A DNA stretch of 57,141 nucleotides. Origin: Clostridia bacterium (GTDB lineage: Bacteria; Bacillota; Clostridia; Christensenellales; Aristaeellaceae). Location of the stretch: the NCBI GenBank assembly GCA_017433405.1, contig JAFRHH010000065.1, forward strand, positions 1-57,141, in the 5' to 3' direction. This document shows, piece by piece, positions 8,048 through 57,141 of this stretch; within the stretch, counting starts at the first letter, position 1; each line of letters begins with the position of its first letter. The position numbers and the translations under genes were made by a program. Below the pieces are notes generated by a model. That model made no database searches. It saw only the letters and a list, made by a program, of their open reading frames with translations, and had not been told where the DNA came from.

Positions 8048-8809
8048 ATGGAAATCATCCAATCCCTTCATAATCCGAAAGTGCAGCTCTGGCGTTCCCT
8101 GAAGGACACCAGAGGCCGTAAGGAACACCGGCTGTTTCTGGTTGAAGGCACCCGCTTCGTTCAGGAGGCCCTTCAGTCTTCTTTTCCCATTCAGGCGATC
8201 CTGCTCCGTGAGGATTATGAACCAAAACCGGCTCTGGTCAGCCGCGCCCCCGTATTTCATCTGGCTGATCATGTTTTCCAGGCGGTATGCGATACCAAAA
8301 CCCCCCAGGGAATTGCGGCGATTCTCTCCCCTCAGACGCTCCCTGTCCGCGGAAATGCTGTTCTGGCCCTGGACGGGATTCAGGATCCGGGAAATCTCGG
8401 AACAATGATCCGGACCGCTGACGCGGCAGGTTTTACGGGTGTTTTGATCAGCCCGGAATGCTGTGATCTATTCTCGCCCAAAGCCCTGCGCGCGACGATG
8501 GGAAGCCTGTTTCATATCGGTATTACGATTTCGGACGACTTTCTGACCCTGCTTAATCAGTATAAGCAGAATGGGTTTTCGCTTCTTTCCTCCCAGCTCG
8601 ACGGAACGCCTTTTTTTGAAAGAAGTCAGATCCGTCCGTCATTCATCCTGATCGTTGGCAATGAAGGAAACGGCGTTTCCGAGGCGGTTCGAAAAATCGC
8701 GACCCATCATCTCTGCCTTCCGATGCAGGGGGCCGCGGAATCATTGAACGCCGCCGTCGCGGCCGGCATCATGATGTATGATCTGATGCGCTTTTCTTCA
8801 GCGCAGTGA
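8048..8809 (+). CDS. TrmH/SpoU-family RNA 2'-O-methyltransferase
   Basis: A 253-residue SPOUT-class methyltransferase. The N-terminal ~95 residues form the substrate-binding domain (SLHNPKVQLWRSL, LFLVEGTRFV). The SpoU domain follows with its three motifs: LDGIQDPGNLGTMIRTADA, IVGNEGNGVS and LPMQGAAESLNAAVAAG. It uses S-adenosylmethionine to methylate a ribose of rRNA or tRNA. The open frame extends upstream inside the giant gene, but ATG 8048 has AAGGAGG at 8031-8037 and starts the conserved domain. It ends 6 bp before the convergent RACo-like gene. The exact target nucleotide is not predictable. Confidence 0.93.
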   Translation: MEIIQSLHNPKVQLWRSLKDTRGRKEHRLFLVEGTRFVQEALQSSFPIQAILLREDYEPKPALVSRAPVFHLADHVFQAVCDTKTPQGIAAILSPQTLPVRGNAVLALDGIQDPGNLGTMIRTADAAGFTGVLISPECCDLFSPKALRATMGSLFHIGITISDDFLTLLNQYKQNGFSLLSSQLDGTPFFERSQIRPSFILIVGNEGNGVSEAVRKIATHHLCLPMQGAAESLNAAVAAGIMMYDLMRFSSAQ

Positions 8810-8815
8810 ACATCA

Positions 8816-10279
8816 TCACTCCGAAGAGAAACGCATCCGCTGAATAAAGGCCCGTTCAAACCCCTTCTCTCCCCCCAGGGGAATATGAACCGTATGTTTT
8901 GCCAGATCCCGAATGATTTTCCGGTTTTTCGGAACGCGGAGCTGTGCGGCCCCGCCGAGCGCCGCGTTTCCGAGACTTTTCGTGATGGGAACCAGTGCCC
9001 CGGGCCAAAGCCCGATTCTTTGGGCGGAAAGCAGATTCATCGAGCTGCCGAAGCCGCCGCAGAGATAAGCGGCCTGAATGTCCTCGACAGCCGTGTCGGT
9101 GCACGCCAGGATTCTATCCAGCCCCGCTCGGAAGGCCGCTTTCGCGAGCAGGACGGCATGAATATCCTCCTGCGCAAGGCTGATCCCTTCGCACAGCCGC
9201 ATTTCATGGATCAGCCGGCCATCTGAATCAATGTGACCGAGAAGCAGTCCCGCCGCGACCGCATCGATGACGCCTGAACCGCAAAGGCCAATCGGCTTCC
9301 GGTTGCCGATGGTACTGATCATAAGCCCATTTCCGGTAGGAATCACCCGATCAATCGCGCCCTGAACAGCCATGCATCCCTGACGCAGTCCAACGCCTTC
9401 CAGCGCCGGCCCAAGTGCTGCCGAAGCGGCATACAGGGTACCGTTTTTCCAAAGCGCCATTTCCCCGTTGGTGCCCAGATCGCACAGTATCGCGATCTGA
9501 GACCGCTCAGACATTTCGGAGAAGAGGACGGAGCAGAGGAAGTCGGCGCCCAGAAAGCCATGGACGCAGGGTGGCAGATAGACCTGCTTCTGATCCATGG
9601 TGATGGTTTCGTCAAATAAATGATCGGGTTGAAAGGGAGCGGTCGCGATCGAGAAAGGTTCCCTTCCGGTGAGCAAATACAGCATGGCGGTATTCCCGGT
9701 GATGACCCAGGAATGGATTCTTTCTCCGTAACCGCTTTGGGCGATTAGCTGCTCAAGGGCGTTCCAGATCTGATTTTGCAGAAGCGGTCCCCGCTGGTGA
9801 AGTGCCGCGCTGATTCTGCCGATCACGTCCGTGGCGACGCTCCGCTGCGGGTTAACCGTTCCGGCAGAATAAACAGGATTCGGATCGGCTTCCCCATAGA
9901 GGCTGAGGGCGATTGTGGATGTTCCGATGTCCGCGACAGCCGTCAACGGGGCCTTCCCATCCGGACAGAAAGGCAGACGTGAACTGTCGTTCACAGAGGT
10001 GAGTAGAATCCGGGCGACGGAAGGCTCCTCCAGCCAGATCCGTACATCCCCCGTCAGCCGCGTCCGGCAGGAAAGGCAGCGCCGGGGCCTGGCCCGTGCC
10101 GCTTCTGATAAATCCGCCCCCTCCGCCAGCCACACGGAACAATGTCCGCATACGCCCCTTCCGCCGCATGGGTGTTCCAGGGAAATTCCGTTTTCCGACA
10201 GCAGCTCGGAAACGGTCGGGCTTCCGTGAAAGAAGAGTACGCGACAGCTTTCGCCCAGATAAATCTCAGCCTTCGGCAT
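8816..10279 (-). CDS. RACo-like corrinoid-activation ASKHA ATPase with [2Fe-2S] domain (DUF4445 type)
   Basis: A 487-residue protein. The N-terminal ferredoxin-like domain has PCGGRGVCGHC (Cys 38, 44, 47) and a later CLSC (68, 71). The C-terminal ASKHA ATPase has AVADIGTSTIAL (phosphate-1), LCDLGTNGEMAL (phosphate-2) and YLCGGFGS. Characterised relatives (RACo, RamA) use ATP to reduce the cobalt of corrinoid methyl-transfer proteins. No corrinoid protein or methyltransferase gene is nearby, so the partner is unknown. ATG 10279 starts 5 nt after the stop of the upstream gene. Residues ~94-107, between the two domains, are encoded by a copy of the dispersed repeat (9959-9999), an in-frame insertion in a linker. 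Confidence 0.85.
   Translation of the reverse strand: MPKAEIYLGESCRVLFFHGSPTVSELLSENGISLEHPCGGRGVCGHCSVWLAEGADLSEAARARPRRCLSCRTRLTGDVRIWLEEPSVARILLTSVNDSSRLPFCPDGKAPLTAVADIGTSTIALSLYGEADPNPVYSAGTVNPQRSVATDVIGRISAALHQRGPLLQNQIWNALEQLIAQSGYGERIHSWVITGNTAMLYLLTGREPFSIATAPFQPDHLFDETITMDQKQVYLPPCVHGFLGADFLCSVLFSEMSERSQIAILCDLGTNGEMALWKNGTLYAASAALGPALEGVGLRQGCMAVQGAIDRVIPTGNGLMISTIGNRKPIGLCGSGVIDAVAAGLLLGHIDSDGRLIHEMRLCEGISLAQEDIHAVLLAKAAFRAGLDRILACTDTAVEDIQAAYLCGGFGSSMNLLSAQRIGLWPGALVPITKSLGNAALGGAAQLRVPKNRKIIRDLAKHTVHIPLGGEKGFERAFIQRMRFSSE
9959..9999 (+). repeat. Dispersed palindromic repeat, copy A (inside the RACo-like coding sequence)
   Basis: Reads CATCCGGACAG, then GGCAGACGTGAACTGTCG, then TTCACAGAGG on the plus strand, the same strand sense that the other copies show on the minus strand. 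The hairpin GTGAAC-TGTC-GTTCAC is intact. It is antisense to the host gene and adds about 14 codons in frame. Confidence 0.8.
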
Positions 10280-10284
10280 TCTTC

Positions 10285-11370
10285 TCAGTTCCCTTCTTCC
10301 AAATAGGCCGGGGGCGTGTATTGATCCGACCAGGTGTTCCCACAGATCGTGCATCGATGCAGTGTCCATCCCCAATGGCCGTTTTCGGGCTGGATCACCG
10401 TTTCTTCCATCGTGGGCGTCTCGCATTTTTCCGCCTGTAAGACCTTATCCGTTTTCCGGGTTTCATCCCGCGTAAAACGCGTAAGGTTATCGGACATCTT
10501 CACGGGCTTCGTCAGCTTTTCGCCGATCACTGCCTCGCAATACGCTCTCCTGTCCCTGTTGTCCTCAAAGAAATGAATGATCCCCGTGACGGTGTTGTGC
10601 ATGATCTTCCCGGAGGAGACCTCCTGCCCGCAGTGATAATACATGCCGATCAGGCCCCCGTTATGCACGTAGCCATGGCAGGAGTCATAGCCGGACAGAT
10701 CGACGGCGCAGCCCGACACATTGCCGATGCCGCAGGCCAGAATGCCGCCCATAAACTGTTCGCAGCGCTGCTGGAACTGTCTGTCCTCCAGCGTAAGCTG
10801 CGCCAGGACCGTACACTGTTCAAAGGATCCGTTTCCGTATCCGGCGATGCCTCCCACGCCGGTCATGATCCCGTGGTTGATCAGGCTCACCCGTCCCCGG
10901 ACGGAAACATTGGTCACGGTGCTGTGATCCGCCTTCCCGCATAGGATGGCAGCAAAGCAGTGCGAGTCCGCCTCGATGGAAACATCCGCGCCGGTGATTC
11001 CGAGATTCATCACAGCGGCGTTGTTCATTTCAGAAAAAAAACCCGCGAGCTGAAGCGAATACTCCTTCAGATTGCCGTCCCGGCCCGGCGAGGTTTCGAT
11101 CCCCGGCTGCCTGATCGTCAGATTGTACAGCACATGCCCGCCGCCGACCAGAACGCCTGAAAAGGGGATCGGCAGCCAGTCCTCCCCGGCCAGATCGATG
11201 TCGTTCATCAGCTGATACCGGCCGCCCGGATCCCGCGCGATGGCCCTGAGATCGGATACCGTATAGATCTGATGAACCCCGGAGGAGAGCTCTTCCGCGT
11301 TCGTGGAGGGGATCAGTAAAACAGAAACCAGAAGAACCCAAAGAATGAACAAAATCGATCTGATCTTCAT
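10285..11370 (-). CDS. Secreted GLUG-like repeat protein
   Basis: 361 residues. ATG 11370 starts a clear signal peptide (MKIRSILFILWVLLVSVLL, cleavage after ..STNA) and has a GAGG site 9 nt upstream; earlier in-frame ATGs lack one. After YTVSDLRAIARDPGGRYQL comes NDIDLAGEDWLPI, the typical opening of GLUG-type surface proteins, then Gly/Asn-rich repeats consistent with a right- or left-handed beta-helix. A C-terminal HRCTICGNTW holds one CxxC pair, perhaps half of a metal or disulfide site. The role is unknown; adhesion or surface interaction is the usual guess for such proteins. It precedes the RACo-like gene by 5 bp, a pairing with no obvious logic. Confidence 0.75.
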   Translation of the reverse strand: MKIRSILFILWVLLVSVLLIPSTNAEELSSGVHQIYTVSDLRAIARDPGGRYQLMNDIDLAGEDWLPIPFSGVLVGGGHVLYNLTIRQPGIETSPGRDGNLKEYSLQLAGFFSEMNNAAVMNLGITGADVSIEADSHCFAAILCGKADHSTVTNVSVRGRVSLINHGIMTGVGGIAGYGNGSFEQCTVLAQLTLEDRQFQQRCEQFMGGILACGIGNVSGCAVDLSGYDSCHGYVHNGGLIGMYYHCGQEVSSGKIMHNTVTGIIHFFEDNRDRRAYCEAVIGEKLTKPVKMSDNLTRFTRDETRKTDKVLQAEKCETPTMEETVIQPENGHWGWTLHRCTICGNTWSDQYTPPAYLEEGN

Positions 11371-11430
11371 TGCCTCATGCCTCATCATCATAGGGAACAT
11401 TTCTTTCCTGCCGGGATGGAATTTCCTGTA

Positions 11431-19143: not shown

Positions 19144-20042
19144 AAGAAATCATCATTGTTTCGCTGGGATCCGGAGACCCTGATCTCCTGAACCGCGCGA
19201 CCCAGAACGCGCTCCGGGATGCTTCTCTTCTGTTTCTGAGAACGGAGCGGCATCCCATCATTCACTGGCTCCGCGAAAAAGGCATTCCCTATCAATCATT
19301 TGATTCATTCTATACGGAGATCGATGATTTCGATCAGCTGAACCGGGCCATTGCCGATCATCTGCTGGAGGCCGCGGCATCATCATCCCCGCTCGTGTAT
19401 GCGGTTCCGGATCCGTGTCTTGATCAGAGCGTGACGAGTTTATATCAGAGCAGTCAGTCCGGAAAGCCTCTGCTCCGGATCATCCCCGGCGTCAGTACGC
19501 TGGATCAGATGCTTGGCCTGGTCAGATCCTTTATCGGATCCGGTGATCTGCGGATATCCACTGCCTCCGGCTTTCCCCAGGTGGATTATGATCCCAGTCT
19601 GACGCTGGTGCTGACGGAAATCGACAACGCGCTGATGGCGGGAGAAATCAAGTACTGTCTGAATCCCTGCATGGCGGACGAGGATACGCTTCTTTTCAGT
19701 CCTGACGGGTCGTCGATCGTGACGATTCCCCTCCTGGCGCTGGATCGGCAGAAACATTACGATCACCGTTCCTTTCTGGTTATTCCGGCCCGATCCGCGA
19801 AAAACCGTTCCCGGTTTACCCTCCGGGATCTGACTGATCTGGCCGATTCGCGGCCGGCTGCTGCTCTCCCCGATCCTTCTCATTCCCAGGGGGCGGAAGA
19901 AGCGGACGAAGAGGAAATCCTGTCCGCAAAACTGGCGAATATCATCCTGAAGGCCTCCTTCGCCAGACGCACCGGGGCCTATGATCTGAAGGATCTGATT
20001 TCAAACGCTTATCGCTTACTGGAAGAGAAGCAGCCTGAATGA
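19140..20042 (+). CDS. YabN-like protein: tetrapyrrole-methylase domain without a recognisable MazG domain
   Basis: 300 residues. The first ~220 match the tetrapyrrole (corrin/porphyrin) methylase-like domain found at the N-terminus of YabN: IVSLGSGDPDLLNRATQ, YAVPDPCL and IIPGVSTLDQML. YabN normally continues into a MazG pyrophosphohydrolase. Here only ~80 residues follow (acidic linker, then KLANIILKASFARRTGAYDL), too short for a full MazG pair and lacking its EExxE motif. Position between YabM and RqcP supports the YabN assignment. Its substrate is unknown. Confidence 0.8.
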   Translation: MKEIIIVSLGSGDPDLLNRATQNALRDASLLFLRTERHPIIHWLREKGIPYQSFDSFYTEIDDFDQLNRAIADHLLEAAASSSPLVYAVPDPCLDQSVTSLYQSSQSGKPLLRIIPGVSTLDQMLGLVRSFIGSGDLRISTASGFPQVDYDPSLTLVLTEIDNALMAGEIKYCLNPCMADEDTLLFSPDGSSIVTIPLLALDRQKHYDHRSFLVIPARSAKNRSRFTLRDLTDLADSRPAAALPDPSHSQGAEEADEEEILSAKLANIILKASFARRTGAYDLKDLISNAYRLLEEKQPE

Positions 20043-20091
20043 CGATTTCCGTACCGCTGTGCCGATGCGATCGCTGACAGAATCCGTCTCC
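20041..20091 (+). repeat. Dispersed repeat, half-copy C
   Basis: The stretch GACGATTTCCGTACCG...AATCCGTCTCC aligns along most of its length with the distal half of copies B (24272-24322) and G (57091-57141). The GTGAAC hairpin half is absent. It fills the gap between yabN and rqcP. Confidence 0.6.
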
Positions 20092-21568: not shown

Positions 21569-22655
21569 GGAAAGCTGAAAAAAACTGACTGTACTGTTCC
21601 CCGATCGCTCGGAGAATGTTCTCGCCGGTGTTTCCGTTGATTTCAAGGAGATGATCTGAATCCGGCGCCGACGCGTCCGTTTCCCGAACCGTCAGATCCA
21701 GCGCATACAGCCTGATCTGATCCGGATTCATGAATTGGGCTGCCCCCCTGATCATTTTTGCGGATCGCTGAATGGATGCTTCCCAGCGCAGGATCGTTTT
21801 GTTCCTTCCGTCGCAAAGCCGTCCGGATAGCCGCTGCACAAGGAGTCCCGAGGATTCGGCCGGCCGCGTAAACGCCTGATGAACTGACAGAATCATATGC
21901 GTGGAGGCGGACTGCGCATACCCCGCTTCCTCCGGGTCCGCGCAGAGGATCACGTCCGTATAAAAGCGATCCTCCGCTTCCTGTTGAACCTGATATCCGA
22001 TATGGTATAAGCGGCCCTGTTCGGAAACGGTGATCACAGATTCCGTTAAGCCGGGCTCCGAACAGTTCAGGGACAGCGTGCCCAGGATCTCACTTTTGCG
22101 GGAAAGCTGAAACGAAAAGGTTTTTCCTTCATCGTAACAGCTGCAGAGAAGCTGCAGGCCCTGATCCTTTAAAAATTCGGCACAGAAAAGATCCACAACA
22201 TTTTTGAAAAGGCCGTCGGGAAAGGAAGCGCTTTTTTCTTTCAGCCATAAAAGGGCGGGAGCTGCTGCGGTAATTACGGTCCGAAGGGAAGCCTTTTCGA
22301 AGGTATCCCCGGAATAGAGGCCACCCTCTTCCCGGGCGTTCATTCCCCCAAACCAGTCCAGCAGGATGGTGGAAATCGTGTCGGGATTGACCGGATGGCG
22401 CATCAGAAAGGGAAGCAGCTTTTCCAGTGTATGAGGAAGCAATGCGCCATCCGTTTTAAAGAGCAGATCCGATTTCGGATGAAGGGAGCCGGACAGCTGA
22501 AGACGGTTCTCCCCCGTCCACAGAGACCAGGTGCTGGGCTGCTCCCGGGAATCAAGTCGATAGAGGCTGATGTCGCAGATCAGCTCGGCGCTGGCCTGTC
22601 TGATCGTCAGTCCGAAAAGCATCGCCAGAAAAAAAGCTCCGATTCTTCTCCTCAT
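21546..22655 (-). CDS. Secreted protein of unknown function
   Basis: 369 residues with a signal peptide ([23 protein letters not shown]). The rest is soluble, with alternating polar/hydrophobic beta-like segments and several cysteines ([27 protein letters not shown]). No family is recognised. It overlaps the upstream secreted gene by 4 bp (ATGA), so the two are coupled and likely work together outside the membrane. No lipobox is seen. Confidence 0.75.
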
Positions 22656-24220
22656 GGCGCTGTCTCCTCAGCCGTCGCGGGGGTGTCCGATGAGGGAACC
22701 TCCTGCGACGGTGCTGCCTCCTCAGTTGTCGCTTGGTTATCCGATAAGATAACCTCCGGCGTGCGCTCGATCTTCTCTCCGGCTATTCGGATGATGGTTT
22801 TGCCCCACAGATCCATCTGTTCAGCGGAAACGGTCGTGATGTCCGTGCTTCTTTCGTGCGGAAGCGGGGTCAGAATCCAGGGCGCGGCGGATTTGAAGGT
22901 GCCGCTTAACCGAAGGTTTTTCTTCCCCTGAAGCCCCTCCATCCATACCTCGAGGGTTGTCGGGCTTTGCTGTGCGTTCTTGCTTGAAAAATGAAAATTA
23001 AAATGCAGCTCGACCGGTTCAAAGGGATCCAGCTTTACGCCCTGAAACTCCTCCCCGCAGAGGGCCTCGTCCTGCGTAATCGCGCAAACGTAATCATAGG
23101 TTTCATGGGTCTTCCCTTCTTCATCGGGCATATCCTCGGTTGTCACATTGCCGGTCAGATGAACGCTCAGGGCGTGGCTTGGAATCTCCGTCCCGCCGTC
23201 CTGCGCGGTCTGAACCCGAAGGCAGGTCAGCGTGTGATCAAAATTCCCAGTCAGCTGAAAGGGTTCCGGCCAGGAAACTCGGATCATTTCCCGGTCGTTT
23301 ACAAGGGAGCAGACCATCGACTGACCTGTGATCTGTTCGATCTGAAGGGAATCATAACCAAACAGGCCGGCAGACAGCGGAAGGCTAAGGCTGCTGGAAC
23401 AGATTTCTCCGGTTTTGATATCACTGGTTCGGGAAAGAACCAGATTCTCGCCGGAAACAAGTCCGGAGGCGATCTCCCGGTAATAGGGAACCAGATCCGG
23501 ATTGAGATAGATGCTCTGCTGCTCCGCCGTCAGTATCGGCTCCAGCAATCCGCGAACAGCCTCGTCCTGAACCAGATCCTCAATCAGATCGGCCAAAAAG
23601 CCCTGGACAGCCTGGAACGGGATGCTGTAGGAAATCTGAAGCATGCTTCGGCCTGATTCATCCGTCAGATATTCCGTGTCCACCGGGAAGAGGGAAAGCC
23701 AAAGCTCGGTCTTCTGCTGATAGGGCGAAAAGGCAGCCTCCCAGTCGCTCGCTTTGCCGCCCTGAAGCGCCTGAATCAGCCGGAGGAGCGCCGAATAGAA
23801 CGGAGGATTGCCATGGCCGGGATGCGCGATGGTCTTGTCCGCCAGGTTTCCCACGCCGGGAATTGCGATCACCGTTCCCGGTAAAAAATCCGAGGCCAGA
23901 TAGGCGGTTCCGTCCTTGATATACAGATCGGTCTTGTTACGCTGCTCTTCCTGATCGTCGGTCTGATAGCAATAGTACAGGGCTTCGGTTCCGTCAGCCA
24001 GCGCCAGACCCCGAAAATCAAAGGTTCCGTTGTTAAGCGCTTTCAAAAAAGGCGCCTCTTCATCCCATCCTTCTTCATGGATCATGAAGGACCCTTTTAA
24101 TCCGCTTCCAATGCTGAGCTGCTTCCGCATTTTCTCGGGCAGGGAGTACTCGGAAAGGGCCGCCCCCCCTCCGACAACCACCAACATCAGGGCCAGCATC
24201 AAAATCAGTAACCTTTTCAT
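22652..24220 (-). CDS. Secreted protein of unknown function with C-terminal tandem repeat
   Basis: 522 residues starting at ATG 24220, with AGAGGAG upstream supplied by repeat copy B. A signal peptide (MKRLLILMLALMLVVVGGG..) is followed by a domain that in pattern (LKGSFMIHEEG, TDLYIKDGTAYLASDF) recalls LolA/LppX-like lipid-binding folds; this is a weak resemblance. The last ~35 residues are two copies of an EV.SD..AT.EE.AP unit, also visible as a DNA-level repeat at 22658-22755. It is coupled by ATGA overlap to the secreted protein downstream. Confidence 0.75.
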   Translation of the reverse strand: MKRLLILMLALMLVVVGGGAALSEYSLPEKMRKQLSIGSGLKGSFMIHEEGWDEEAPFLKALNNGTFDFRGLALADGTEALYYCYQTDDQEEQRNKTDLYIKDGTAYLASDFLPGTVIAIPGVGNLADKTIAHPGHGNPPFYSALLRLIQALQGGKASDWEAAFSPYQQKTELWLSLFPVDTEYLTDESGRSMLQISYSIPFQAVQGFLADLIEDLVQDEAVRGLLEPILTAEQQSIYLNPDLVPYYREIASGLVSGENLVLSRTSDIKTGEICSSSLSLPLSAGLFGYDSLQIEQITGQSMVCSLVNDREMIRVSWPEPFQLTGNFDHTLTCLRVQTAQDGGTEIPSHALSVHLTGNVTTEDMPDEEGKTHETYDYVCAITQDEALCGEEFQGVKLDPFEPVELHFNFHFSSKNAQQSPTTLEVWMEGLQGKKNLRLSGTFKSAAPWILTPLPHERSTDITTVSAEQMDLWGKTIIRIAGEKIERTPEVILSDNQATTEEAAPSQEVPSSDTPATAEETAP

Positions 24221-24229
24221 CTTCTGAAT

Positions 24230-24322
24230 CTCCTCTGTGGACGGCAGTCCACGTCTGCCATTCTGTCCGGACAACGATTCTTAACCGCTTTCGCTGACGT
24301 GATCGCGGACAAAATCTGTCTC
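24230..24322 (-). repeat. Dispersed palindromic repeat, copy B (full length)
   Basis: Minus strand: distal half with TGTCCG...CGGACA closing arms, then GGCAGACGTGGACTGCC and GTCCACAGAGGAG. The hairpin is GTGGAC-TGCC-GTCCAC, a compensated variant of the GTGAAC/GTTCAC form in other copies. It encodes the last ~14 residues and stop of dus and ends in the ribosome site of the gene at 24220. Confidence 0.88.
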
Positions 24323-25282
24323 CGGACCGTCCTCCTCCATGATACGATGAAAGTACTGGCGAAGGAAGGAAAGAACGTCCCCCGGTTCCGTTAAACGATT
24401 AATTCGATTGCGCGTCTGCGCCGCCCCCCGAAGCCCGTGAATATACCAGCCGATATGCTTTCTCATTTCACGGACGGCGATATGAACAGGCTTCGCCGCC
24501 AGCATCCGGCCATAATGATCTTCAATCATGGCTTCCCGCTCCGAAAGTGAAATGGCTGTTTTCTTCCTTCCGGAGCTCAGCTCCTGAAGATCTCTGAATA
24601 TCCATGGGTTACCCATGGCTCCCCGGCCAATCATGATTCCGTCGCAGTACTTTTCTGAAAGCTTTTTCAATGCGTCTTCGGCCGTAAACAGGTCTCCGTT
24701 CCCGATGACCGGAATGCTGACCCTGTCCCGGACCGCCCTGATGCTTTCCCAATCGGCATTCCCCATATATTGCTGGGTTTTTGTCCTTCCATGAATGGTG
24801 ATCTCACGGATTCCGGCTTCCTGGGCCATCAGACCGAATTCAACGGCGCAGAGATGTTCCTGATCCCAGCCGAGCCTCATTTTGACGGAAACCGGAAGGG
24901 ATACGCTCTGAACCGTTTCCTTCATGATTCGCCAGGCCAGGCCGGGCCTTAGCATAAGCCCTGCTCCCTCTCCGGAGGATGCCACCTTATGAGCCGGACA
25001 ACCCATATTAAGATCAATCCCGTCATATTGTCCCGTCTCCGCAAGCCGATGCGCCGCTTCGGCCATAACGGACGGATCCCTGCCGAAGAGCTGAACGATC
25101 AGGCGCCTTTCCCCGGGATGACGAATGAGCAGCTCTCTGGTCGCCCGCTGATTTGGCGCGCACAGATACCCCTGGGCGCTGACCATCTCGGTATAGGTCT
25201 CTTCGCAGCCGGCCTGTGCGCAAATTCCCCGGTAAATCCAATCCGTGACGCCGCACAGCGGAGCGAGTCGAAAGCGCGTCAT
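24281..25282 (-). CDS. tRNA-dihydrouridine synthase
   Basis: 333 residues of the FMN-dependent Dus family. Features are RLAPLCGVTDWIYR, LNMGCPAHKV with the catalytic Cys (~100), KMRLGW, ITIHGRTKTQQYMG and NGDLFTAEDA...GIMIGRGAMGNPW. It reduces specific uridines in tRNA to dihydrouridine with NADPH. The body looks most like DusB. The C-terminal tail (TDFVRDHVSESG) is encoded by repeat copy B. It overlaps the upstream unknown gene by 4 bp. Confidence 0.94.
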   Translation of the reverse strand: MTRFRLAPLCGVTDWIYRGICAQAGCEETYTEMVSAQGYLCAPNQRATRELLIRHPGERRLIVQLFGRDPSVMAEAAHRLAETGQYDGIDLNMGCPAHKVASSGEGAGLMLRPGLAWRIMKETVQSVSLPVSVKMRLGWDQEHLCAVEFGLMAQEAGIREITIHGRTKTQQYMGNADWESIRAVRDRVSIPVIGNGDLFTAEDALKKLSEKYCDGIMIGRGAMGNPWIFRDLQELSSGRKKTAISLSEREAMIEDHYGRMLAAKPVHIAVREMRKHIGWYIHGLRGAAQTRNRINRLTEPGDVLSFLRQYFHRIMEEDGPETDFVRDHVSESG

Positions 25283-37361: not shown

Positions 37362-37402
37362 CTCCTCTGTGAACGGCAGTTCACGTCTGCCTTTCTGTCT
37401 CC
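37362..37402 (-). repeat. Dispersed palindromic repeat, copy D (short form)
   Basis: Minus strand GGAGACAGAAAGGCAGACG followed by TGAACTGCCGTTCACAGAGGAG. The perfect GTGAAC-TGCC-GTTCAC hairpin is kept and the distal half is deleted. It encodes the last codons and TGA stop of dxs (ETERQT-stop) and the ribosome site of tlyA. Confidence 0.88.
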
Positions 37403-54752: not shown

Positions 54753-54781
54753 ATTATATGAAACCGCGCCCTGTCTGTCAA
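54753..54781 (-). promoter_or_regulatory. Promoter of the transketolase operon
   Basis: Minus-strand TTGACA, 17-nt spacer, TATAAT: perfect consensus. The TGA of the -35 is the stop codon of the preceding gene. TGACAGAC occurs as a direct repeat at the -35 and 31 bp downstream. Confidence 0.92.
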
Positions 54782-56037
54782 GCTTGCGGCAGGACGAAAT
54801 CGCCTTTTCCGGCCATGCGTGAAAGCGCCTCCGCCAGGGCGATCCGCCCGTGGGCATAGGTCAGGCTTCCCTGCATATAAACCGTGTAGGGCGGGCGGAT
54901 CGGTCCGTCCGCGCTGAGCTCAATGCTGGCGCCGGCGACAAAGGTTCCCGCCGCCATGACGACCGGGTCCTCGTAGCCAGGCATGGGCCAGGGCTCCGGA
55001 AGGGCCATGCTGTCGATCGGGCTGGCGGTCTGAATCCCCTGGCAGAAGGAAACCAGCCGCTCCGCCGTCCCGAGTCTGACCGCCTGAATGATATCGGCCC
55101 GATCTTCCCGGGAGGAGGGAGACGCTTCCATCCCCAGGTTTTCAAGCACCCGCGCGGTCAGCATGGCGGTTTTCAGCGCCTGGGCCACGGTGTGCGGCGC
55201 CATGAAAAGCCCCTGATAAAAAGGCCGGTAGCTCGCCGCGTAGGAGCCCAGTTCCCGGCCGAGGCCCGGGGCCGTCAGATGGAAGGCGATTCGGTCCACG
55301 GCTTCCGCCAGCCCCACAATATAGCCTCCCGTCGGGGCAAGACCGCCGCCGGGATTCTTAATCAGGGATCCGACGCACAGATCCGCTCCGAAATCCGTCG
55401 GCTCCTTTTCCCGGACGAATTCCCCGTAGCAGTTGTCCACCATCAGCAGAACACCCGGATGCCTTTTGTGAATCATCTCCGCCAGGGCCTCAAAATCCTC
55501 GGGCATCAGGCTTCGCCGCCAGGCGTAGCCCCGGCTGCGCTGGGCGATGACCAGGGTCGTTTCCGGCCGGATCGCCCCTTCGACGGCCTCCACATCGATC
55601 TGGCCCTCCTTCAGCGGTACCTCGCTGTAGCTCACGCCGAATTCCCGGAGGGAGCCGGGAGCCGCCTTCTCTCCGATCCCGATGATCCCCAGCAGCGTAT
55701 CATAGGGAGTTCCCGTTGCGGAAAGGATATGTTCTCCCGGCTTCGTCAGCCCGAAGAGCGTATGGCTCAGGGCCGCGGTCCCGCTGGCGATCTGGGGCCG
55801 CATCAGCGCGGCCTCCGTATGAAAGAGATCGGCATAGATCTTTTCAAGCGTATCCCGGCCGATATCGTCATAGCCGTAGCCAGTGGTGGGAGAAAAATGC
55901 CGGTAGGAAACGCCGTGCTTCCGGAAAAGATCCAGCAGCTGACGGGTCCGGACGATCTCATTCCGGTCGATGGCGGCAAAGGGCTCCCGCAGGGCGTTTT
56001 CCGCCTCCTGAATCAGATTTTCAATGCTGTTGATCAT
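54778..56037 (-). CDS. Aluminium-resistance/methionine gamma-lyase family PLP protein (YnbB-like)
   Basis: 419 residues, fold-type I PLP enzyme. Typical segments are SGTAALSHTLFGLTKPGEHI, VDNCYGEFVREKEP and the PLP-binding Lys in GSLIKNPGGGLAPTGGYIVG. The family is annotated from resistance screens and sequence likeness; the true reaction is uncertain. ATG 56037 starts the conserved MINSIENLI; AGGAGG lies ~15 nt upstream and the repeat pair E/F just beyond. miaA upstream matches the Firmicutes miaA-hfq-ynbB order, without hfq here. Confidence 0.9.
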   Translation of the reverse strand: MINSIENLIQEAENALREPFAAIDRNEIVRTRQLLDLFRKHGVSYRHFSPTTGYGYDDIGRDTLEKIYADLFHTEAALMRPQIASGTAALSHTLFGLTKPGEHILSATGTPYDTLLGIIGIGEKAAPGSLREFGVSYSEVPLKEGQIDVEAVEGAIRPETTLVIAQRSRGYAWRRSLMPEDFEALAEMIHKRHPGVLLMVDNCYGEFVREKEPTDFGADLCVGSLIKNPGGGLAPTGGYIVGLAEAVDRIAFHLTAPGLGRELGSYAASYRPFYQGLFMAPHTVAQALKTAMLTARVLENLGMEASPSSREDRADIIQAVRLGTAERLVSFCQGIQTASPIDSMALPEPWPMPGYEDPVVMAAGTFVAGASIELSADGPIRPPYTVYMQGSLTYAHGRIALAEALSRMAGKGDFVLPQA

Positions 56038-56061: not shown

Positions 56062-56092
56062 CTCCTCTATGAACGGCAGTCCGCGTCTGCCA
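56062..56092 (-). repeat. Dispersed palindromic repeat, copy E
   Basis: Minus strand GGCAGACGCGGACTGCCG followed by TTCATAGAGGAG. The hairpin is partly decayed (GCGGAC against GTTCAT). Tandem with copy F; it lies between miaA and the PLP gene. Confidence 0.85.
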
Positions 56093-56093
56093 T

Positions 56094-56124
56094 TCTCCTC
56101 CATGAACGGCAGTTCACGTCTGCC
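56094..56124 (-). repeat. Dispersed palindromic repeat, copy F
   Basis: Minus strand GGCAGACGTGAACTGCCG followed by TTCATGGAGGAG; the hairpin GTGAAC-TGCC-GTTCAT is kept with one G-T pair. It begins at the base after the miaA stop. Confidence 0.88.
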
Positions 56125-57039
56125 TCATTCCATAGCTTTCCGAAGATGGCTGGCGATATCCGGATTCTCCGCGTCGAGATAGATCACCGACGGCTCCCTT
56201 CGAAGGAAGGTCATCTGCCTTTTGGCGTAGTGCCTCGTGGCCGTCTGGATCTCCCGAAGCGTTTCCGCTTCCGTGCAGGATCCCCGAAGCAGCGGAATGA
56301 CCTGGCGATACCCGATGGCCTGCATGCTCTGGGCGTCCTCCGGCACGCCTTCCCTCAGGAGTCCCTCGACCTCCTCCGGCAGGCCTCCCCGCATCATCCG
56401 TTCAGTCCGTTCGTTAATCCTCCGATAAAGATGTTCCCGCTGCATCGTCAGGGAAACGACGATCCACCGGTGGGATGAACCGTTTTCACGGGTCTGGGCG
56501 GAAAAGGGAACGCCGGTCTTCTCCGTCACCTCGATCGCCCGGATCACGCGCCGGACATCCCCCTCCGGCAGCCGGGACGCGGTGACCGGATCCAGCGCAC
56601 GCAGCCGGTTCATCAGTGCACGCCTGCCCTCCGGCGTCTCCCCCAGCGCCAGCATTTCCTGCCGCCGGGCCGGATCCGCCTGAAAGCCGCCCATGCTCAG
56701 GCCGTGCATCATCGCGTCCAGGTACAGCCCCGTTCCGCCGACAAAGAGGCAGCCCTTTCCCCGGCGGGCGCAGTCCTGAATCGCCTTCTCCGCCGCCTCG
56801 GCATAGGCTGCGACGGAGAAGGATTCGGATGGTTCCACCAGATCCAGCAGATGATGCGGAACCCTCGCCCGATCCGCCGGCGTCGGTTTGGCTGTCCCGA
56901 TATCCATCCGTCGGTAAATCTGCATGCTGTCCATGCAGAGGATTTCCCACCCGTTTTCTTCCGCCAGGGCCAGGGCCCATTCGGATTTTCCGATTCCGGT
57001 GGGACCTGTCAAAACCCGGCACAGGTTCTGATCAGTCAT
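56125..57039 (-). CDS. miaA: tRNA dimethylallyltransferase
   Basis: 304 residues. P-loop LTGPTGIGKSEWALALAE, then CMDSMQIYRRMDIGTAKP, HHLLDLVEPSESFSVAAY, FVGGTGLYLDAMMHGL and the C-terminal QAIGYRQVIPLL. It transfers a dimethylallyl group to A37 of tRNAs reading UNN codons. ATG 57039 has AGAGGAG from repeat copy G upstream. Confidence 0.97.
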   Translation of the reverse strand: MTDQNLCRVLTGPTGIGKSEWALALAEENGWEILCMDSMQIYRRMDIGTAKPTPADRARVPHHLLDLVEPSESFSVAAYAEAAEKAIQDCARRGKGCLFVGGTGLYLDAMMHGLSMGGFQADPARRQEMLALGETPEGRRALMNRLRALDPVTASRLPEGDVRRVIRAIEVTEKTGVPFSAQTRENGSSHRWIVVSLTMQREHLYRRINERTERMMRGGLPEEVEGLLREGVPEDAQSMQAIGYRQVIPLLRGSCTEAETLREIQTATRHYAKRQMTFLRREPSVIYLDAENPDIASHLRKAME

Positions 57040-57047
57040 CCGTTTAT

Positions 57048-57141
57048 TCTCCTCTGTGAATGGTAATTCACGTCTGCCATTCTGTCCGGATGACGATTTT
57101 GTAGCCGCGTCGCTGACGCGTTCGCGGACAAACTCTGTCTC
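57048..57141 (-). repeat. Dispersed palindromic repeat, copy G (full length, reaches window edge)
   Basis: Minus strand, distal half with TGTCCG...CGGACA arms and inner CGCGTC-AGC-GACGCG, then GGCAGACGTGAATTACC and ATTCACAGAGGAG. The hairpin is GTGAAT-TACC-ATTCAC, a second compensated variant. The upstream gene (off the edge) may end inside it: one frame stays open, another closes at a TGA overlapping the miaA ATG. Confidence 0.88.

Follow-up and report, generated by a model that had tools for sequence, protein, structure and literature searches.

The repeat directly upstream of miaA is quite probably a copy of a non-autonomous, strand-specific mobile element that inserts 3' of a GGAG tetramer, itself ends in GGAG, and thereby regenerates a Shine-Dalgarno sequence (SD). 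It is about 93 nt long and has the layout GGAG/ACAGATTTTG...GTTCACAGAGGAG/, where slashes mark the borders, and ends in GAGGAG. A profile of 20 copies found 162 matches at E ≤ 0.01 in 1,183,811 bp of the 2,533,817-bp genome and none in the same sequence reversed, which excludes chance. The source genome is 89% complete, and the sample consists of 61 sequences, namely 60 stretches of up to 20 kb and the window, i.e. the whole 57,141-nt stretch of DNA analysed. The matches comprise 70 full copies, 77 without the 5' end only, 11 without the 3' end, and four without both. A first genome search with a 102-nt query had given 280 candidates, of which 40 were scored, yielding at least 50 matches. Part of the sample contigs were chosen mostly for earlier element matches, and another part blind. 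The blind stretches and the window hold 42 matches in 398,550 bp (about 267 per genome), and the non-blind stretches 120 in 785,261 bp (about 387 per genome). By extrapolation, we estimate several hundred copies, about 270 to 390 per genome. The original prediction of a dispersed, structured, two-module element of about 93 bp is borne out by these matches and by two hairpins kept in most copies. Neither of the outcomes named against it, few copies or random placement relative to starts and strands, occurred, and the reading of a selfish repeat with a usable ribosome site, which it had offered as one option, fits the data. Three findings go beyond that prediction: GGAG at the 5' border as well, an SD in relatives at several of the empty sites, and similar behaviour of a second, diverged family.

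The window is an entire contig (G000:C41) that ends exactly at the 5' end of the miaA copy. Such contig ends are usual where a repeat breaks an assembly. Of the seven profile matches at E ≤ 0.01 in the window, two are full copies, one is a short form, two form a short tandem pair, one is degenerate, and one is a 5' half (Table 1). The miaA copy reads GAGACAGAG...CCGGACAGAATGGCAGACGTGAATTACCATTCACAGAGGAG, its 3' part being ...GTGAATTACCATTCAC-AGAGGAG, and the gene that follows is miaA, which has an IPPT domain. Stem 2 of the other full copy carries the double change GTGGAC/GTCCAC. The tlyA product, downstream of the short form, has FtsJ and S4 domains. The copies before miaA, the gene starting at 24220, tlyA, and gene 54778-56037 had been described as ending in an SD before a minus-strand start. 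For the tandem pair at about 56.1 kb, a separate AGGAGG lies between the pair and the ATG of gene 54778-56037, which hence need not use the element's SD. The rule does not extend to all seven matches, as one is antisense within a gene and another lacks the 3' half. Short 3' modules of about 31-37 nt also stand alone in tandem at L085:8254-8326 (plus strand), as they do in the window, as if the 3' module could duplicate by itself.

Table 1. Copies of the element and their parts in the 57,141-nt window
Feature	Position	Strand	Context or basis
Full-length copy, 93 nt	57049..57141	-	3' AGAGGAG is the likely SD of miaA; 9 nt to ATG at 57039
Hairpin 1 of miaA copy	57095..57135	-	GATTTTGT-type outer stem, CCGC/GCGG, CGC/GCG; 94-95% of cells paired (60 copies); ssDNA consensus fold, RNA fold
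Hairpin 2 of miaA copy	57056..57071	-	GTGAAT-TACC-ATTCAC, directly 5' of SD; RNA fold
AGAGGAG, SD and 3' terminal GGAG of element	57049..57055	-	Sequence, 3' logo
Full-length copy before gene 22652-24220	24230..24322	-	AGAGGAG 9 nt from ATG at 24220
Short form (3' module), dxs-tlyA junction	37362..37399	-	Contains dxs stop codon and SD ahead of tlyA
Short 3'-module copy, first of tandem pair	56095..56125	-	Profile match
Short 3'-module copy, second of tandem pair	56062..56096	-	24 nt from ATG of gene 54778-56037
Degenerate copy (model 12-93)	9928..10001	+	Antisense within RACo-like gene 8816-10426 (-), codons 141-166; no start nearby
5' half only (model 1-58)	20033..20090	-	No SD end; adjoins plus-strand genes

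We then inspected the borders of the element. In the profile alignment, 80% of 49 non-tandem full copies have a G immediately before GAGACAG. Directly ahead of ACAG, 46 of the 70 full copies have the tetramer GGAG and 55 a tetramer that begins with G, while 24 have no exact GGAG immediately 5'. At the other end, the logo of the profile matches reads GAGGAG, and tandem copies share the junction CACAGAGGAGACAG. As 48 of the 52 copies that span the entire model are 93-95 nt long, the inserted piece would mostly be 90-92 nt with GGAG at its end. Alternatively, the GGAG at both borders may be a fixed 4-bp target that was duplicated. Terminal inverted repeats, the hallmark of a classical MITE, were not seen when 60 full copies were aligned and inspected. 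A CGTC occurs inside the element at the foot of hairpin 1 and is not an end tag, and two of the three frames of the sense consensus are open. The 60 full copies have a mean identity of 81%, with nearest neighbours at 90% (median) and a maximum of 98%, values that suggest an old family with limited recent movement.

The two-hairpin structure, with 24 pairs named by hand, has 93.7% paired cells in the 60 full copies. Six pairs are changed on both sides, a number reached by three of 500 shuffles, and there are nine such cells, reached by none of 500. Slid controls have 24-44% paired cells and similar double changes (3-8 pairs versus 6), so the structure stands out from them by paired-cell share, covariation score, and number of pair types, not by double changes. 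In the hairpin 2 helix, 92% of cells are paired, and exchanges from C-G to U-A and from A-U to G-C occur. Unaided, RNAalifold returned only three pairs from the 60 rows; the covariance model R1, used below for other genomes, is therefore nearly a sequence model, and the structure was counted with the hand-named pairs. The single-stranded DNA fold of the consensus has a z-score of -4.7, with the 5' GGAGAC pairing with GTCATCC, and RNA folds of five copies, three of them from the window, have z-scores of -0.45 to -2.85. The SD lies outside both hairpins. An alternative hairpin, AATGGCAG/CTGCCGTT, was rejected as its covariation was not above that of shuffles. Rfam at the gathering score matched one tmRNA and one tRNA in the window, neither at an element copy, and at E ≤ 1 gave a single sub-threshold match in locus L002, elsewhere in that locus.

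For placement, gene starts were called by frame competition, blind to SDs, giving 908 genes in the sample. This caller misses some genes, e.g. Dus (24281-25282) and, in part, the RACo-like gene; an earlier codon-usage caller was dropped because it called antisense ORFs. The 3' end lies 0-20 nt before a same-strand start in 71 of the 162 copies, with 41 of them in a peak at 8-12 nt, and none of the 162 has its 5' end that close to a start on the opposite strand. When copies were placed at random in non-coding DNA, the mean was 4.6 and the maximum 10 in 60 trials. The 123 copies that have an intact 3' end, lie outside called genes, and are flanked by called genes on both sides include 118 with a co-oriented downstream gene. 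Judged by this placement and orientation, the element can supply the SD on the coding strand, as had been proposed. Non-element GGAGs within 150 nt upstream of genes, counted on both strands, are sense at 0-20 nt in 415 of 986 cases, compared with 66 of 110 element copies. Since GGAG itself is concentrated at SDs, GGAG targeting together with removal of in-gene insertions accounts for much of the pattern. Copies at 51-150 nt upstream are 23 sense and three antisense, versus 234 and 141 for the GGAGs (p 0.006), and those at 21-50 nt are 17 and one, versus 133 and 40 (p 0.13). Selection for working SDs probably accounts for the sense excess over GGAG availability.

Where operons are tight, copies also adjoin the end of the preceding gene, and 18 copies contain the stop codon of the gene upstream. 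Thirteen copies lie inside called genes, all sense, eight of them full and several in the 3'-terminal part of the gene upstream; at least one antisense in-gene copy, the RACo-like case, was missed by the gene caller. Three genes can be read through the copy without a break in the frame: L050:1177-2565, L049:8234-9817 (two copies), and L049:10820-12085. In the first, the insertion lies in an HI0933-like protein, whose match to the Rossmann domain comes as two separate stretches. The in-frame copies, L050:1654-1746 (plus strand) and L049:8969-9061, 8732-8820, and 11366-11400 (minus strand), read as the peptide ETDFVRERSSEA...GRRE..FTEE. The HI0933-like oxidoreductase has one copy and one other protein has two.

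We compared 14 loci with same-genus genomes, namely dxs-tlyA and 13 others against G009, G051, and G003. G051 and G003 have no match to either element model, and G009 has one, on a doubtful contig. Locus names besides tlyA and dxs are our presumptive assignments from the sequences. Four of the 14 loci (dxs-tlyA and those we take to be floA-, par+1-, and ruvB-like) have in relatives a plain GGAG SD at the insertion point, and the 5' flank reaches it. The distances from GGAG to the start in the relative and here are 5 and 7 nt (tlyA), 8 and 8 nt (floA-like), 9 and 10 nt (par+1-like), and 11 and 13 nt (ruvB-like). At the presumed trpE- and znuC-like loci, only the GGAG-to-ATG stretch resembles the relatives. 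The remaining eight comprise two without a match (mutS?- and ahcY-like) and six that are not decisive (serS-, trkA-, metH-, nuoE+1-, purN-, and purH-like). The trkA-like locus fits SD insertion poorly: its 5' border is TGAG, at a distance from the stop that exceeds that of the relatives' SD by 13 nt. At dxs-tlyA, two relatives have the plain SD AAAGGAG where the short copy sits; dxs and tlyA overlap there (ATGA), whereas here dxs enters the short copy and stops at a TGA inside it.

On this basis, the element would insert immediately after a coding-strand GGAG tetramer. If that tetramer belongs to a gene's SD, the original SD would stay upstream, and the element's own GGAG would replace it at about its former distance from the start codon. 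As the element both follows and ends in GGAG, insertion into an SD would rebuild an SD, and with the replacement at about the old spacing translation could continue, so that the insertion would cost little. Alternatively, the repeat may have no target choice and land anywhere in non-coding DNA, with selection keeping mainly those copies whose SD replaces a lost one. The SD letters are indeed better kept beside starts (GGAG in 59 of 70 copies versus 52 of 77 elsewhere, p 0.02, counts from printed fractions), five of the 123 copies have no co-oriented downstream gene, and 77 copies lack only the 5' end versus 15 lacking the 3' end (four of these lack both). However, a randomly placed element is not expected to have a preferred 5' neighbour, and the G preceding 80% of the non-tandem full copies mostly completes GGAG; at several loci, moreover, relatives have an SD where the element sits here. 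We consider placement without target choice unlikely.

A different role for the element would be that of a cis-regulatory RNA, either a thermometer or a protein-binding leader, that gates translation of a regulon via hairpin 2 next to the SD. Such gating by the hairpin had been part of the original prediction. It would agree with the position of a well-paired hairpin directly 5' of the SD and with the about 70 of 908 called genes in the sample that have an element at 0-20 nt before the start; in the RNA fold of the miaA copy, GTCATCCG can also pair with CGGATGAC over the start codon. The measurements point the other way. The mean unpaired probability of GGAG is 0.51 in 59 element-borne SDs, slightly above the 0.43 in 410 ordinary ones (p 0.016). 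Stem pairing is no better kept near starts, with 5.30 of 6 pairs versus 5.48 and 5.51 (p 0.16), and start-codon complementarity of at least 7 nt is no commoner, occurring in 3 of 70 genes versus 32 of 838 other genes. The genes downstream of copies look unrelated on inspection, and many copies keep the 3' module only. An SD outside the stem, SD letters but not a stem that are better kept near starts, and no enrichment of pairing with the start codon together indicate an open SD and argue against gating, which we regard as highly improbable.

Under the preferred reading, a mobile repeat that rebuilds the SD, the element would move as single-stranded DNA by an HUH/Y1-type transposase, as suggested by the absence of terminal inverted repeats, the two hairpins, and the fixed tetramer at both borders. 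The IS200/IS605 layout, with insertion 3' of a fixed short target, sub-terminal hairpins, and no target duplication, agrees with the element in the 5' tetramer (46 of the 70 full copies have GGAG and 55 a first G) and in the hairpins, but the GGAG at both borders may instead be a duplicated 4-bp target. Our search of the genome for a mobiliser found none: a single Y1_Tnp gene was detected, and it is associated with a different palindrome family. Its protein (L031:805-1548, minus strand) matches Pfam Y1_Tnp with 42.8 bits, above the cut-off, and NF047646 (REP-associated tyrosine transposase) with 58.5 bits, under the 80-bit cut-off. One full element copy lies about 150 nt upstream of this gene and none downstream within that stretch. 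The palindrome upstream of it (..GGACGTATCTTCTGTCTT) belongs to a family with the core GGGGACGTATC, which has 24 exact matches in the 1.18-Mb sample. The Y1 gene of G047 has no element copy in its flanks of up to 300 nt. A RAYT as the mobiliser is a doubtful proposition. A search for an autonomous copy with cargo between the two halves covered 14 of the 15 copies without a 3' end, and none was convincing.

Retroposition offers another route, in which a small RNA is copied by a reverse transcriptase, leaving 5' truncation, a fixed 3' end, and sense orientation. The preponderance of copies lacking only the 5' end (77, against 15 without the 3' end) and the strong sense bias are in line with it, and the genome has four reverse-transcriptase matches, two of them beside group II intron RNA. 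Short forms, however, could also arise by loss of internal sequence between ACAGA repeats and by decay in the 5' half, the four reverse-transcriptase loci contain no element match at E ≤ 0.01, and hairpins near both ends suit DNA transposition too. Retroposition is thus quite unlikely. At the loci L302, L303, and L304, two reverse transcriptases are accompanied by group II intron RNA, and there is an additional reverse-transcriptase fragment.

Other palindromes occur near the element and near Y1 genes. The stretch L031 (G000:C5:1-20000) is rich in the element, with 11 matches over its 20 kb (roughly fourfold the mean), and also has many GGGGACGTATC palindromes. A palindrome family resembling GGAACG..GGGGAC.GTCCCC..CGTTCC adjoins several element copies (L036 at about 15360, L083 at about 6720, L060 at about 8940, and L058 at about 3350). 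The Y1 genes of relatives (L114, L115, L119, L122, and L283) have adjoining GGGGACGGTTC-type (GGGGAC-type) palindromes, which resemble the TIR motif GGGGWSAS described in the accessible text of PMC3733652.

Safe harbours of mobile DNA include tRNA genes, terminators, and other repeats. If the proposed reading is true, homing to and rebuilding of the ribosome landing site joins these strategies, with MIRUs using start codons, and a repeat can supply a sizeable share of a genome's SDs. Because many ordinary genes received the same leader end, they would form a natural experiment on leader length and on structure upstream of the SD. The broader claim, to which we give about an even chance, is that of a class of mobile element with the SD tetramer as both target and 3' terminus and start sites as its safe harbour, which would have re-written the SD of roughly one gene in thirteen of this genome and, in two or more other species, have diverged while keeping this habit. 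A literature search found no SD-targeting repeat family; its thin coverage of subscription papers makes it weak evidence of novelty. Neisseria REP2 is a repeat with a ribosome site, and the search for it returned no paper.

The following comparisons refer to the accessible parts of the sources cited. The nearest precedent found appears to be the MIRUs, short and apparently mobile repeats that insert at start codons with little harm to genes (PMC12548453). The element likewise is short, looks mobile, and would insert at a translation start signal with little harm. As described there, MIRUs differ by insertion at the start codon itself and by an internal ORF coupled to the gene, whereas the element follows GGAG, ends in an SD, and has two hairpins; its 3' ends peak 8-12 nt before starts. 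Elements of the REP/RAYT/IS200/IS605 group are palindromic, have high copy numbers and a conserved tetranucleotide, and are suspected of single-strand mobility (PMC8266576), all of which are shared by the element. REPs are described as having GTAG or CGTC tags and lying close to the 3' ends of ORFs (PMC3733652). In contrast, both borders of the element are GGAG-type, its copies end just before starts and not mostly at ORF 3' ends, and the RAYT-like gene of this genome has another palindrome family. Rickettsia palindromic elements (RPE) are reported in frame inside proteins (PMC2229807); in-frame copies occur here too, but sites before starts dominate (71 of 162, versus 13 sense copies in genes). 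The TAACTGA repeats of marine Beggiatoaceae lie just upstream of start codons, mostly in one orientation (PMC4679880). In that account they are 7-nt tandem units with little SD character and SDs are rare beside them, whereas the element carries an SD.

We then looked for the element in other genomes. Model R1 detects it in six of 45 genus genomes, with at least 95 matches in the source genome, 13 in G047, nine in G056, and one each in G009, G043, and G018. Model R2, built from 12 copies of G047, G056, and G043, detects it in five of 45, with at least 93 matches in G000, 20 in G047 (19 places, as one match is a reverse-strand overlap), 13 in G056, and one each in G043 and G009. Across the order, R1 matches two of 297 sampled genomes (the source genome and G018), under stricter filters that lose weak matches. 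An exact 23-mer of the element, searched as an exact string, had no match in IMG/VR. The stems of the G047/G056 form differ from those of the element, and the plan is alike, GGAG/ACATATTTTG...GCAAAATAGTCATCCG...GAGGAG/. Its placement was read at 22 loci, fetched from among the R1 matches (13+9+1+1) and the R2 matches (20+13+1), most of which coincide. The profile gave 27 rows; five reverse-strand palindrome echoes were dropped, and no row came from the G018 locus. Of the 22 forward rows, 21 are followed within 25 nt of the 3' end by the start of an ORF of at least 80 aa. Off the 5' end this is so for 7 of 22, the chance level in this GC-rich DNA (21 versus 9 for all 27 rows). Judged by these predicted ORFs, the homologous but diverged family of G047 and G056, which are two other species of this genus, sits likewise before starts. 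The contig with the single G009 copy is 93.9% identical to G000 over 3,087 bp; that copy may stem from recent transfer or a misbinned contig and hence was not counted as independent. Among the matches listed, the closest named relative by Dxs is a yak jejunum MAG (76% identity). Contig C45 of G009 (L051) and contig C54 of G000 (L044) share 93.9% identity over 3 kb, yet the TlyA proteins of these two genomes are only 73% identical.
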